Of a stretch of DNA of 64,000 nt, positions 1-8,069 are shown piece by piece (positions within the stretch are counted from its first letter, which is position 1; every line of letters begins with the position of its first letter). The notes below the pieces were generated by a model. That model saw only the letters and a list, made by a program, of their open reading frames with translations, had not been told where the DNA came from and did not search any database. The stretch is from assembly GCA_017409845.1 (NCBI GenBank), contig JAFQRY010000024.1, forward strand, positions 37,516 to 101,515, given 5' to 3'. The translations under genes were made by a program, and so were the position numbers. The DNA is from Clostridia bacterium (lineage in GTDB: Bacteria > Bacillota > Clostridia > Oscillospirales > Acutalibacteraceae).

Positions 1-2166
1 GATGAGATAATAGCCGTCGGGTCTTCTGCAGGCAATGTCACCGCTGTGAAGCCAGCCGTCCTTATCAATCGCTGCCTCCGTTGCCTTGGGCATCTTATAA
101 TAACCTTTCATTATGTTATAGCCTCGTGCAACGAACTCGCCGTTTTCGCCATCGGGAAGGTCCTCTCCGGTTTCAGGGTCGATAATCTTGCATTCAACAT
201 TCGGGAATGCACTGCCGACGGTTTCCGTTCTGTCTTCGAGCGATTCATTGACCTCGCCCATTGTGCAGCCCGGTGATGCCTCTGTTTGACCGTAAACGCT
301 GATGATTTCGGTCATGTTCATCTCAGCCGCAGCTTTTTTCATAAGGTCGGGAGGACAGTTTGCACCTGCCATAATACCCGTTCTCATATATGAGAAATCG
401 GTTGTTGCAAAATCATCGTGCTGGAACATTGCGATAAACATGGTGGGAACACCGTTGAAGCAGGTGATATGCTCCTGATTGATGCAGGCAAGTGATGACT
501 TTGCCGAGAAATAGGGCAGGGGGCAGAGTGTGCCGCCGTGGGTCATCATGTTGGTCATTGAAAGAACCATGCCGAAGCAGTGGAACATCGGAACCTGAAT
601 CATCATGCGGTCAGCGGTGGACATATCCATTCTGTCGCCGATAATCTTGCCGTTGTTGACGATATTGTAGTGAGTGAGCATAACGCCTTTCGGGAAGCCG
701 GTTGTGCCCGAAGTATACTGCATGTTTGCAACATCGTGGCAGTCAACTGCCGCCGCTCTGCGATAGACTTCTTCAATGGGAACTCTTACAGCCATATCCA
801 GGGCTTCTTCCCAAGTAAGACAGCCTTTCTGACGGTATCCGACAGTGATAACATTGCGAAGGAAGGGGAGTCTTCTGCAGTGAAGGGGCTTGCCGGGAAC
901 TGCAAATTCAAGCTCGGGGCAAAGCTCTGCGATATGCTGAGCATAATTGGAATCAAGACAGGATTCGATTGTCACAAGCGTGTGAGTATCGCTCTGCCTG
1001 AGAAGATATTCAATTTCGTGGATTTTATATGCGGTGTTGACCGTAACAAGAACCGCACCGATTTTTGTTGCAGCCCAGAAGGTGATGAACCACTGGGGAA
1101 GGTTTGTGAGCCACACGGCAACCTTATCACCGGGCTTTACGCCGAGAGCGATAAGTGCTCTTGCACAGTTGTCAACATCGTCACGGAACTGTGAATATGT
1201 TCTTGTGTAGTCGAGAGTTGTGTATTTGTATGCAATCTGGTCGGGAAATTTTTCAACCATCGTGTCAAGCACCTGAGAGAAGGTCTTGTTGATGAGCTTG
1301 TATTTTTCCCAGACAAATTTGCCGGAGCCGCTTCTGTTTGTCATAAGAAGCTCTTCGCTGTTTTTCTTGTTATCGTAATTGCTTATTGCGTTAACAAAAT
1401 GCGGGAATACGATTTCCGCAATGCCGAAATCCTCAATGCTTTCGGGCTGACATTCATAGGAAAGATAACCGTCATAGTTAACGGAATCAAGTGCACGCAG
1501 CATGGTGCCGAGGGGAAGGTTTCCTTCGCCGATAAGTCTGTATTTAAGCTCACCGTCAACAATTTCGGAATCCTTGACATGAACATGCTTGATATATGCA
1601 CCGAGGTTTGTGATTGTTGTGTCGGGCTCTTCGCCGAAATCCCTGTAGGGATGGTTGATATCCCAGAGAGCGGCAAGAGCATCACATGCAAAGATGTTGA
1701 GAAGGTCACGCAGTCTTGATGTGTCGGCATAAATGCCTACAGTTTCAACAAGAAGAGTAACATTATCCTGCTCAGCTTTGCTCACAAGTCTGCCGATGAG
1801 CGAGGTGACAGCTGCATCCTCAGCTTTCTTATCGCCCATTGCGTAAGCATGGATTCTGACATAGGGGCATCTGATTCTTGATGCAATTTCAATTGCGGTT
1901 GCAATTTCTTCAAAGCCTTCCTCCGCCTTGCTTTCATCTGCAATGTTGATGTATGTATCAATGCAGGGGATTGTGAGAGAATTCTCAACAAGCTTATGAA
2001 GAGTTGCAGCGGTGTTTGCTTTGTTGAAGGGGGCATCCGCACCCGAAAATCTTTCGTCTGTGATATTGTGAATTTCAATTCCGCTGAAGCCGAGGTCATT
2101 TGCCGTGCTTATGAAATCAGCCCAGCTCATGTCCTGCCAGCCATTGGTTGAAAAGGAGAGTTTCAT
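1..2166 (-). CDS. TIM-barrel sugar isomerase-like domain fused to AMP-binding acyl-CoA synthetase-like domain (partial)
   Basis: I read this minus-strand frame by hand; it is open from ATG 2166-2164 to the left edge (at least 722 codons, no stop). Residues about 1-250 are a xylose-isomerase/AP-endonuclease-2 type TIM barrel with the usual metal-site stretches LLVETVG, WDINHPYR, HVHVKD and YECQPE. After a short linker, residues about 280 onward are an AMP-forming ligase: YTSGTTGFPKG at 484-494, YGQTE at 625-629, GWLHSGD near 704-710. The small C-terminal subdomain with the catalytic lysine lies outside the window. GAGGAGGG precedes the start, which overlaps the upstream stop as ATGA, so the two are translationally coupled. 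The substrate is unknown. Family membership is firm; a joint function (activating a sugar-derived or carboxylic product) is inference. Confidence 0.85.
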   Translation of the reverse strand, partial: MKLSFSTNGWQDMSWADFISTANDLGFSGIEIHNITDERFSGADAPFNKANTAATLHKLVENSLTIPCIDTYINIADESKAEEGFEEIATAIEIASRIRCPYVRIHAYAMGDKKAEDAAVTSLIGRLVSKAEQDNVTLLVETVGIYADTSRLRDLLNIFACDALAALWDINHPYRDFGEEPDTTITNLGAYIKHVHVKDSEIVDGELKYRLIGEGNLPLGTMLRALDSVNYDGYLSYECQPESIEDFGIAEIVFPHFVNAISNYDNKKNSEELLMTNRSGSGKFVWEKYKLINKTFSQVLDTMVEKFPDQIAYKYTTLDYTRTYSQFRDDVDNCARALIALGVKPGDKVAVWLTNLPQWFITFWAATKIGAVLVTVNTAYKIHEIEYLLRQSDTHTLVTIESCLDSNYAQHIAELCPELEFAVPGKPLHCRRLPFLRNVITVGYRQKGCLTWEEALDMAVRVPIEEVYRRAAAVDCHDVANMQYTSGTTGFPKGVMLTHYNIVNNGKIIGDRMDMSTADRMMIQVPMFHCFGMVLSMTNMMTHGGTLCPLPYFSAKSSLACINQEHITCFNGVPTMFIAMFQHDDFATTDFSYMRTGIMAGANCPPDLMKKAAAEMNMTEIISVYGQTEASPGCTMGEVNESLEDRTETVGSAFPNVECKIIDPETGEDLPDGENGEFVARGYNIMKGYYKMPKATEAAIDKDGWLHSGDIACRRPDGYYLI

Positions 2167-3578
2167 GCGTTACCCTCCTCATAAACGATTTTGTTGAGGG
2201 CATTGATATATGCAGTTATACTTGCACCGATAATGTCAGTTGAAAGTCCCTTGCCCGAATAGAGCCTGCCGTTTGAGCGGAGCTTAACGAGAGCTTCACC
2301 CATCGCTTCTCTGCCTTCGGTGACTGACTGAATCTGAAAATCGTCAAGCTCATAGTGGTGACCGATAATCTGCTCAACAGTGCGGAATGCGGCATCAATG
2401 GGACCGTCGCCCATGCCGACCGCCTTGAGACTTCTGCTGCCCTTTTCGAGCTCGATGTTTGCGGTTGAGGAAATATGGTTTCCTGAATTTATAACATAGT
2501 TTTCAAGTCTGTAGGTGGGAGGAACCTGGTGTGCAACCGTTGCGATGATTGCATCAAGCTCTTTGCTGCCGACCTGCTTTTTGCCTGAAAAGCTCTTGAA
2601 AGCTTCAAAAACCTTTGCCGTATCATCTTCCGTAAGCTCATAGCCGAGCGAAACAATCGCCTTGCTGACCTTTGTGATGTCTGCGGTATCATCAAGAAGA
2701 ACGTTGTTTTCTGCCGCAAAACGTGATGTGCCCGATGAGAATGAACCCTTTCCGCTTTCGCTGGTCATTGAAAGAATCTGATTTGCGGAATGATTGATTG
2801 CCATTGCGTTGACACCGTAGCTTACGTCAAGAGTGTGTCCTTTGACCTGAAGAGCCTTCATAACATGCTCAAGGTTGGGAAGCTCCTTGCTGCCGATGCA
2901 GGTTTTTATCTGGGTTGCACCTGCTTCAATGCATGAAAATACGCATGCATTTGCCATGTCAAGTGCGTCGCTGCATTCCGCACTCAGAGTGATATCTCTT
3001 GCCTCGGGAATTGCTTCACGGATTTCAGAAATGAGTGAGGCAAATTCATCGGGAAGAAATGCACCTGCGGTGTCACAAAGGGTAACGGTTTTTGCACCGT
3101 TAACAATTGCTGCTTTTATTGCTTCGAAAAGATAAGCCTTGTCCGCTCTTGTTGCATCAACTGCCGAAAACTCAACATCGCTGCAGATTGAAGAGCAATG
3201 TGCGGTGAGTGATGCGATAAGTTCAAGCATCTGAGCGGGCTTCTTATGATAAAAATATTCCATCTGAACTGCCGAAACAGGGAGCGAAACAAGAAGTCTG
3301 GGCTTTGCTGTGCCTGAGATTGACTTCATTGCTCTGTCTGCTTCTTCGACCGTGCAGCCTGCAGGGCAGGATAGAATGCTGTTCTTTAGGAGGGGACTTA
3401 TAGTGCGCAAAACAAGGGTGTCAATTTTTTCGTCTGTGACGGGTGCAGCTTCAATAACATCAATGTTGAGCTTATCGAGAAGCTTTGCAATTTCGATTTT
3501 TTCTTTGAAGCTGAGGGCGATGTCACCCCTGCGTGCACACTCTCTGAGCGTTGCATCTGTGATTGTGATTTTTTTCAT
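2163..3578 (-). CDS. LeuA/homocitrate-synthase-like protein with altered metal site
   Basis: 471 residues: an N-terminal HMGL-like TIM barrel and a C-terminal LeuA allosteric/dimer domain (about 355-470, with the GDGPIDAAF stretch). True 2-isopropylmalate synthases carry DTTLRDGEQ and an HCHND metal motif. Here the first reads TDATLREC and the second LSAECSDA, so both metal-binding histidines are replaced by Glu and Ser. It is therefore probably not a normal alpha-IPM synthase; it may be a changed Claisen-type enzyme or a regulatory or scaffold subunit. A strong AAAGGAG site precedes the ATG. It is the first gene of a two-gene (or longer) operon with the TIM-barrel/ligase fusion. Confidence 0.8.
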   Translation of the reverse strand: MKKITITDATLRECARRGDIALSFKEKIEIAKLLDKLNIDVIEAAPVTDEKIDTLVLRTISPLLKNSILSCPAGCTVEEADRAMKSISGTAKPRLLVSLPVSAVQMEYFYHKKPAQMLELIASLTAHCSSICSDVEFSAVDATRADKAYLFEAIKAAIVNGAKTVTLCDTAGAFLPDEFASLISEIREAIPEARDITLSAECSDALDMANACVFSCIEAGATQIKTCIGSKELPNLEHVMKALQVKGHTLDVSYGVNAMAINHSANQILSMTSESGKGSFSSGTSRFAAENNVLLDDTADITKVSKAIVSLGYELTEDDTAKVFEAFKSFSGKKQVGSKELDAIIATVAHQVPPTYRLENYVINSGNHISSTANIELEKGSRSLKAVGMGDGPIDAAFRTVEQIIGHHYELDDFQIQSVTEGREAMGEALVKLRSNGRLYSGKGLSTDIIGASITAYINALNKIVYEEGNA

Positions 3579-3853
3579 GCCGATTTCTCCTTTTTGAACA
3601 GCATATTTTGACGGAATATGCCTTAATAAAAATACTTATGCACTATAAGTTCTTTATATTATAATGAAATCGTCACTCAAAGTCAATATTAAATTGGTAT
3701 CATAAATATTAAATAAAAAACATTGTATGTTGCAACAATTTGAGAGAAAAAGGTGAATTGTGATGTGTATATTTTCAACAAAAATTTGTGTGGCTGTTTG
3801 TATATTCATACAGCACAATTTTTTCAGGCAAAACAAGTATTTTGCACAGAAGT

Positions 3854-7727: not shown

Positions 7728-8069
7728 ATGAAAAACAAGGCACTCAAGATAATTGCTTTCGTAGTAATTATTTCAACTGTATGCTGCTTCTTTGCTTCAG
7801 CTGTTGACAGCGCAAGCATCGCAGATCTTTCAACATCAGTAGCAACACCTGCTACTCCTGCAACTCCCGCTACTCCCGCAACTCCCGACGAACCTGCAAC
7901 CGGCACAGATGAGCCTGTAACAGGTACAGACGAACCCACAACCGGCACAGATGAACCCACAACCGGCACAGATGAGCCCGTTGAAGAGAGCATCTTTGTT
8001 AAGATCATTAACTTCATCATCAACACAATCAAATGGGTAATCGATTTTATCGTTACAACTTTCTGCTGA
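7728..8069 (+). CDS. secreted Pro/Thr-rich repeat peptide with amphipathic C-terminus
   Basis: 113 residues from ATG 7728 (TGGAGGG seven bases before). A signal peptide (residues 1-25, IIAFVVIISTVCCFFASA) is followed by four PAT-type triplets and tandem repeats of the five-residue pattern TGTDE-P, then a hydrophobic tail (IFVKIINFIINTIKWVIDF) ending in Cys. It starts 7 bases after the O-antigen-ligase-like gene and ends the operon. The repeat region is a likely cell-wall spanning spacer or glycosylation target. Its tail resembles the C-terminus of the first gene of the operon. Confidence 0.7.
   Translation: MKNKALKIIAFVVIISTVCCFFASAVDSASIADLSTSVATPATPATPATPATPDEPATGTDEPVTGTDEPTTGTDEPTTGTDEPVEESIFVKIINFIINTIKWVIDFIVTTFC

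Follow-up and report, generated by a model that had tools for sequence, protein, structure and literature searches.

What is a sugar-isomerase-type TIM barrel doing at the head of an acyl-CoA ligase, and why does the gene lie directly behind what looks like a dead 2-isopropylmalate synthase? Both questions are raised by the left edge of a 64,000-nucleotide stretch of a Clostridia bacterium genome (GCA_017409845.1, contig JAFQRY010000024.1, positions 37,516 to 101,515 of the forward strand; the whole stretch is called the window below), where a barrel and an AMP-forming ligase are encoded as one protein on the minus strand. Here we propose, as a fairly probable answer, that the fusion is an isovalerate-activating ligase that would feed 2-oxoisovalerate:ferredoxin oxidoreductase (VOR) and the aminotransferase IlvE in the making of leucine, that its barrel serves in docking or regulation, and that the dead LeuA-like protein encoded next to it reports leucine. 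In the open-access literature, no paper turned up that names the ligase, its fusion to a barrel or the LeuA-like gene, or that reports a dead LeuA.

A conserved fusion of barrel and ligase

The fusion gene and its parts lie in the window as follows.

1..2166, minus strand: TIM barrel / AMP-forming acyl-CoA ligase fusion gene, codons 1-722 of 834 (open frame and Pfam)
1441..2106, minus strand: AP_endonuc_2 (xylose-isomerase-like TIM barrel) domain, residues 21-242 (Pfam, 93 bits)
1744-1746, 1660-1662, 1579-1581 and 1453-1455, minus strand: codons of the barrel's metal ligands E141, D169, H196 and E238
97..1260, minus strand: AMP-binding (adenylate-forming ligase) domain, residues 303-690 (PF00501, 313 bits)
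685-717 and 280-294, minus strand: ligase motifs A3 and YGQTE

The original prediction, made from the window alone, described a single uninterrupted frame joining a barrel with intact metal residues to a ligase, and supposed that the product of an isomerase or epimerase step is handed to adenylation and thioester formation. The description stands; the hand-over, discussed below, is not supported for the clade of this gene, and the LeuA-like gene is absent from that prediction. From its ATG at 2166 to position 1, the frame runs stop-free for 722 codons, and the contig completes it to 834 amino acids (L002:13178-15682), with the final 339 bases (L002:13178-13516) lying left of the window. The full protein exceeds the curated Pfam cut-offs for AP_endonuc_2, AMP-binding and AMP-binding_C (residues 741-816, 65 bits), the latter two marking it as an ANL ligase. 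All the motifs quoted for it are in frame, namely VETVG (E141), WDINHPYR (D169), HVHVKD (H196), YECQPE (E238), YTSGTTGFPKG and YGQTE, and this copy has all four metal ligands. By structure comparison (VIA-align), the barrel has the TIM-barrel fold of isomerases and epimerases; unlike the known AP_endonuc_2 enzymes of that kind (IolI, Art22, AsbF, UlaE, D-tagatose 3-epimerase), it is fused to a ligase. The nearest NCBIfam model to the fusion is PRK12583, a fatty acid CoA ligase family, at 660.4 bits against a curated cut-off of 832, and the solved structures nearest to the ligase by sequence are fatty-acyl and feruloyl-CoA synthetases.

A second genome of the same genus has the same open architecture, with a barrel 84% identical. 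When 200 genomes of the family were searched with the barrel, 92 matches were obtained, and in 71 the frame is 700 amino acids or longer (counted by eye); the 60 matched regions that were fetched, together with the window genome, gave 50 fusion loci. A scan of named genomes returned at least 583 relatives, and every one of the best 80, which were kept, matches from residue 1 to residue 828 or beyond. Since the same architecture is open in the genus mate, in the family genomes and in the named-genome loci, the fusion is real, and chance or a sequencing artifact is excluded. Among the best 80, the carriers are mostly metagenome-assembled genomes (MAGs) of gut Clostridia, many of them ruminant-derived; four loci carry the label Ruminococcus sp. 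and come from ruminant gut (L099, L101, L126, L160), and two carriers are named isolates, Candidatus Formimonas warabiya DCMF and Anaerobacterium chartisolvens. The comparison took in 130 fusions altogether, most of them from MAGs.

The two parts also occur as separate neighbors, so the relatives include both forms rather than two genes throughout. Eleven standalone barrels were fetched from the family, nine with a ligase gene just upstream (one with an intervening gene) and two without. A phylum-wide search of 398 genomes gave 48 matches, fused and unfused, of which 20 regions were fetched. In unfused pairs of other lineages, the ligase precedes the barrel, which is the reverse of the order in the fusion. 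Six of the 20 regions, all from other families (L231-L236), share the order ligase, barrel, and then the gamma, alpha and beta subunits of a 2-oxoacid:ferredoxin oxidoreductase (OFOR), the subunits being identified by NCBIfam in L231 and L236 and elsewhere by weak similarity. Five of the six also have a ferredoxin-type gene, L235 has ilvN and ilvD just upstream of the run, and L238 and L240 have parts of the same order. Three genomes of yet another family, sharing one genus code (L228-L230), encode an intact standalone barrel, and their fetched regions of 16 kb contain no ligase; the original reaction of the barrel may be found there. In 13 of the 50 family loci, the fusion is immediately followed by the gene of a protein of about 270 amino acids that starts with D-x-HCH (for example L046:5728-6534, L057:5614-6426, L068:5760-6572 and L075:5944-6750); the three of these that were scanned, plus one in L165, are Amidohydro_2 proteins.

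A LeuA-like gene without its catalytic residues

Directly 5′ of the fusion in 110 of the 130 loci (107, plus three cut at contig ends) lies a LeuA-like gene, which in the window has the following features.

2163..3578, minus strand: LeuA-like pseudoenzyme of 471 amino acids, HMGL-like barrel plus LeuA_dimer (Pfam and alignment)
2187..2573, minus strand: LeuA_dimer (leucine allosteric) domain, residues 336-464 (PF08502, 108.5 bits)
2970..2978, minus strand: site of the lost HxH metal motif, now E-C-S, residues 201-203 (alignment to solved 2-isopropylmalate synthases, and conservation)
3540..3545, minus strand: site of the lost catalytic R-D pair, now R-E, residues 12-13 (same evidence)

In 2-isopropylmalate synthase (LeuA), the R-D pair is catalytic and the HxH residues bind the metal. 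The LeuA-like protein has both domains of that enzyme, with HMGL-like at 109.6 bits and LeuA_dimer at the score given above, yet it reaches only 269.5 bits against the TIGR00973 model of the true synthase, whose cut-off is 598.7. Aligned to the solved enzymes, TLRDG has become TLREC and the HxH stretch has become ECS. Neither the pair nor the motif is kept in any of the 104 complete copies, and the replacements vary. In 12 measurable pairs of the 14 compared, dN/dS is 0.06-0.16, a range to be read with care because dS is often near saturation; because of these values, the gene is, to judge from its sequence, under purifying selection and not decaying.

Could such a protein still be an enzyme? 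It might perform an altered chemistry, such as a metal-free condensation to a 2-alkylmalate-type acid that the adjoining ligase would then activate, and the retained fold and length, the almost invariant barrel positions D8 (100 of 104 copies) and R144 (104 of 104) and the position next to a ligase in 110 of 130 loci are all in keeping with this. We nevertheless regard it as very improbable: no common replacement has arisen at the lost sites, the older clade of fusions keeps its ligase without a LeuA-like gene, and conservation is concentrated in LeuA_dimer, with a mean majority fraction of 0.75 over the 104 copies versus 0.53 for the barrel. In characterized synthases, LeuA_dimer is the leucine-binding regulatory domain (PMC11057210). 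Compared with solved structures, the single LeuA_dimer sequence of the window gave no match, and a profile of 21 rows picked up a single weak hit, 3f6g, an entry with the name alpha-isopropylmalate synthase. The LeuA-like protein is probably a leucine sensor, with leucine binding predicted from the domain it carries.

The closeness of the two genes points in the same direction. The LeuA-like stop lies between -20 and +46 bases from the fusion start in 104 of 107 loci (in the window, the two genes overlap by 4 bases), and the distances among LeuA-like barrels correlate with those among fused barrels even when ligase distance is taken into account (partial r 0.58, 103 loci). HisZ is a dead synthetase paralog. 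It serves as the regulatory protein of the ATP phosphoribosyltransferase HisGS (PMC9734150), and it offers an analogy of role, without homology, for a dead relative turned regulatory subunit; a physical complex of the LeuA-like protein with the fusion, under the control of an effector, would be the counterpart here. If a dead paralog tightly linked to its target gene is what marks a regulator of the HisZ type, the LeuA-like gene fits on both counts.

The fused barrel tells a different story from the ligase behind it. The P-loop TSGTTGxPKG, YGxTE, the hinge D, an R and a C-terminal catalytic lysine are the working parts of ANL ligases, and the twelve motif positions scored are kept in 126 (Y625), 128 (T488, K816) or 129 of 129 fusions, one truncated fusion of the 130 having been left out. 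The metal ligands of AP_endonuc_2 barrels are E, D, H and E. Every one of the 20 fusions without a LeuA-like gene has all four intact, as does each of the 11 standalone barrels from the family set; in fusions preceded by a LeuA-like gene, they are intact in 46 of 110 and degenerate in 64, which sets these barrels apart from the known isomerases and epimerases. Mapped on the ligase tree, the four-ligand state changes 15 times, at least eight of the changes being forced by starred branches. Metal-site decay is not confined to this clade, since a standalone barrel from outside the family (L245) also departs at E141 and H196; it has no ligase nearby, and its genome also has a fused copy.

An active isomerase or epimerase passing its product to the ligase would account for the fold of the barrel, for the intact site in the window copy, in the older fusions and in the standalone barrels, and for the frequent sharing of an operon by standalone barrel and ligase. 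It would hardly allow the site to come and go while the ligase motifs stay nearly constant, and a sugar-derived acid is ill-suited to the leucine-reading leaders and branched-chain amino acid genes described below. We therefore reject channeling from barrel to ligase for the fusions preceded by a LeuA-like gene, and consider an active, product-supplying barrel unlikely overall; in the older fusions and the unfused pairs, whose barrels are intact, channeling may occur. In the LeuA-like clade, the barrel would act mainly as a docking or regulatory domain rather than as a supplier of substrate.

Leucine leaders and the genomes that carry them

In the window genome, the two genes head an operon with the order LeuA-like, fusion, ilvE, ParA-like, ferredoxin, VorB, KorB, KorC, XRE-cupin and MbcS-like ligase, so that VOR and the branched-chain aminotransferase are encoded together with the fused ligase; everything after the fusion lies on the same strand, outside the window. 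The ilvE and VorB products exceed their model cut-offs, KorB and KorC fall below theirs, the ferredoxin has 68 amino acids, and the MbcS-like ligase scores 419.7 bits against a cut-off of 850.

T-boxes turn genes on when their cognate tRNA is uncharged, and the specifier codon of the leader names the amino acid. An Rfam T-box above the gathering score precedes the LeuA-like gene in 13 of 16 loci (the exceptions are L002, L096 and L052), and a motif scan of 107 loci found one just 5′ of the LeuA-like/fusion operon in 75; six of the 32 loci without the motif have fewer than 300 bases upstream. We read the specifier as the codon nine bases 5′ of the stem I GAG, a rule set on 11 aligned leaders and then scripted. 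It is a leucine codon in 72 of the 75 (CTC in 59, CTG in 13), the other three being L073, L107 and L124; in L073, the context suggests that the script picked a later GAG. A second pass restricted to confident parses gave leucine in 74 of 74. Fusions without a LeuA-like gene have the T-box motif in 8 of 20 cases, six of the eight at the Rfam gathering score; seven read leucine by eye, and the eighth (L166) reads leucine in the Rfam alignment. A T-box before a ParA gene (L115) also reads leucine. The MbcS-type ligases of the same loci behave differently: among 60 open reading frames, 36 leaders were readable and gave 18 isoleucine and 18 valine specifiers with no leucine, 23 had no motif and one was left unread, the pattern having been widened after five misreadings among 26 leaders had been inspected by eye. 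Locus L128 has three leaders at the gathering score, of which the LeuA-like gene has one and two MbcS-type genes have one each. A 2008 survey of T-boxes mentions a leuA T-box, and its main text has no words starting with CoA or ferredoxin (PMC2494555).

Where other relatives have the T-box, the window has a different element.

3635..3686, minus strand: promoter-like site TTGACT-17-TATAAT (3686-3658) followed by the dyad CTTATAGTGCATAAG (3649-3635), upstream of the LeuA-like gene

Three near kin (L053, L096, L097) have a similar site with CTTATAGTGCATAAG ahead of their LeuA-like genes. Across the genome, the dyad shows no clear enrichment, with 8 matches versus 4 for a backwards control at up to two mismatches.

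Might the ligase act on some other acid, such as an aryl acid, a longer fatty acid or acetate, with the leucine T-box merely reflecting demand for a VOR operon that it shares? The nearest solved structures named above, and the pyruvate:ferredoxin oxidoreductase (PFOR) or IorA that adjoins the fusion in some loci, speak for it. This explanation is improbable too, given that the T-box precedes the LeuA-like/fusion unit itself, including where no VOR is adjacent and where no LeuA-like gene is present, and that isoleucine and valine T-boxes mark different ligases of the same loci. Where VOR is not adjacent, examples of the OFOR that follows the fusion are L124:11539-15078, L092:11868-15389 and L056:10744-12492 (two PFOR, one IorA). 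Neighbors in 11 of 107 loci weakly resemble indolepyruvate:ferredoxin oxidoreductase; both large proteins checked among them are PFOR and the one small protein checked is IorA, and we draw no argument for an aryl acid from them.

Genome content separates the carriers. We compared, by eye, 69 genomes of the family: 37 with LeuA-like gene and fusion, 13 with the fusion and no LeuA-like gene, 5 with standalone pairs and 14 without the barrel. In that order, LeuB is over its cut-off in 5, 12, 2 and 12 genomes, IlvC in 7, 11, 3 and 12, and a LeuA covering most of the TIGR00973 profile is found in 5, 12, 5 and 12, the TIGR00973 cut-off itself being passed by one of the 69. VorB (E of 1e-60 or lower) is found in 35, 13, 5 and 5, which amounts to 53 of the 55 genomes that have ligase and barrel versus 5 of the 14 that lack the barrel.

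A candidate route from isovalerate to leucine

Isovalerate serves in the rumen as a precursor of leucine, 2-methylbutyrate as one of isoleucine and isobutyrate as one of valine (PMC7356843), and the conversion of isovalerate to leucine by carboxylation was described in ruminococci (Allison 1962, 1966). That route is known from physiology, and the present loci approach it from the side of the genes, where ligase, VOR and IlvE would supply its steps. The leucine T-boxes, together with genomes that are poor in LeuB and rich in VOR, lead us to infer that the fused ligase is probably the isovalerate:CoA ligase of this route. The fusion would convert isovalerate, ATP and CoA to isovaleryl-CoA; VOR would carboxylate this reductively, with CO2 and reduced ferredoxin, to 4-methyl-2-oxopentanoate; and IlvE, with an amino donor, would yield leucine. 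These three steps are drawn from family function and gene association. The fourth, which draws on pseudoenzyme anatomy, close gene linkage and the rate correlation, is that the LeuA-like protein probably binds the fusion and reports leucine to it, and would hold the ligase back by way of the barrel; its action would resemble that of HisZ on HisGS, without kinship. In Staphylococcus aureus, the AMP-forming ligase MbcS scavenges branched short acids, activating 2-methylbutyrate and isobutyrate and, poorly, isovalerate (PMC10026030), and the precursor of leucine would therefore need another ligase. An MbcS-like gene stands in the operon of the fusion; the fusion itself differs in being nearest to PRK12583, in its barrel and in the leucine T-box of its relatives. 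The simplest reading is one ligase for each branched-chain amino acid, with the fusion for isovalerate.

A number of observations weigh against this proposal. In the genus to which the window belongs, T-boxes were found neither by Rfam nor by motif, two of the leucine-reading fusions without a LeuA-like gene (L081, L127) have leaders below the gathering score, and among 17 standalone ligases the motif occurs in one, with an unreadable specifier. VOR lies within the fetched stretch of 51 of 107 LeuA-like loci and of none of the fusions without a LeuA-like gene, and another OFOR takes its place in 11 of the 107, three of them identified (two PFOR, one IorA). Fisher tests of the genome counts are strong and ignore relatedness, five of the 37 genomes with LeuA-like gene and fusion are less than 90% complete, and the 14 comparison genomes are those printed among the no-match genomes, at 97% completeness or more. 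The window genome has an ilv-leu operon of its own, with LeuB and IlvC over their cut-offs, a LeuA of 557 amino acids that keeps HPHNDRG, and ilvA, leuC, leuD, ilvB, ilvN and ilvD read from their sequences without a family search. Because it keeps the ordinary pathway, the isovalerate route would be additional in this host; the two other genomes of the genus that were searched have neither leuA nor leuB. Isovalerate is probably the substrate on the strength of regulation and neighbors, leucine binding by LeuA_dimer is predicted from domain kinship, and VOR may run oxidatively.

In that last case, the operon would serve to break leucine down, IlvE and VOR yielding isovaleryl-CoA and the AMP-forming ligases making ATP by running in reverse. 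IlvE and VOR are reversible in principle and VOR is common in amino-acid fermenters, which speaks for this reading. It is nonetheless quite improbable: leucine T-boxes act at leucine shortage, the genomes with the LeuA-like gene mostly lack leucine synthesis, and AMP-forming ligases normally run towards acyl-CoA.

Some further features of these operons deserve mention. The ParA/CbiA-like P-loop protein (L002:11391-12080, below the Pfam cut-off) recurs just 5′ of ferredoxin and VorB in the VOR operons of relatives. The XRE-cupin (L002:8230-8778) and MbcS-like ligase (L002:6532-8214) are separate genes in the window genome; in relatives, the XRE-cupin domain is fused to an MbcS-type ligase in proteins of about 750-800 amino acids (L048:11068-13341, L048:13692-16019, L045:3708-5981 and others), often as two adjacent paralogs, one with an isoleucine and one with a valine T-box, and the cupin may sense a ligand for these ligases. 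Elsewhere in the window, positions 7842-7979 contain tandem repeats of 9, 18 and 21 bases; within a small protein, these code for short repeats of Ala-Thr-Pro and Gly-Thr-Asp-Glu-Pro.

Returning to the isovalerate proposal, a fuller history can be sketched, which we offer tentatively and hold to be plausible but short of probable. LeuA would have been kept as a corpse in lineages that abandoned the ordinary leucine pathway, where, instead of making isopropylmalate, it would sense leucine, dock on the barrel and turn the isovalerate ligase off. Each branched-chain amino acid would have its own ligase and T-box, and the leucine ligase would in addition have a second sensor at the level of protein, recycled from an enzyme of the type that the ligase had rendered superfluous. 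The metal-bearing barrel of the older clade would have been the earlier sensor, perhaps of a 2-oxo acid, and would have decayed after the dead LeuA took over. Public annotation presumably labels these genes as isopropylmalate synthase and sugar isomerase, which would lead to wrong predictions of leucine auxotrophy. Ruminococci use branched-chain volatile fatty acids as growth factors, and the carboxylation of isovalerate to leucine has been known physiologically since the 1960s (PMC7356843). Candidate ligases are now named for leucine, isoleucine and valine according to the specifiers of their T-boxes, so that this old pathway becomes testable gene by gene, and a dead biosynthetic enzyme kept under purifying selection beside the route that would replace its own pathway offers a natural setting in which to test how a pseudoenzyme turns into a sensor.

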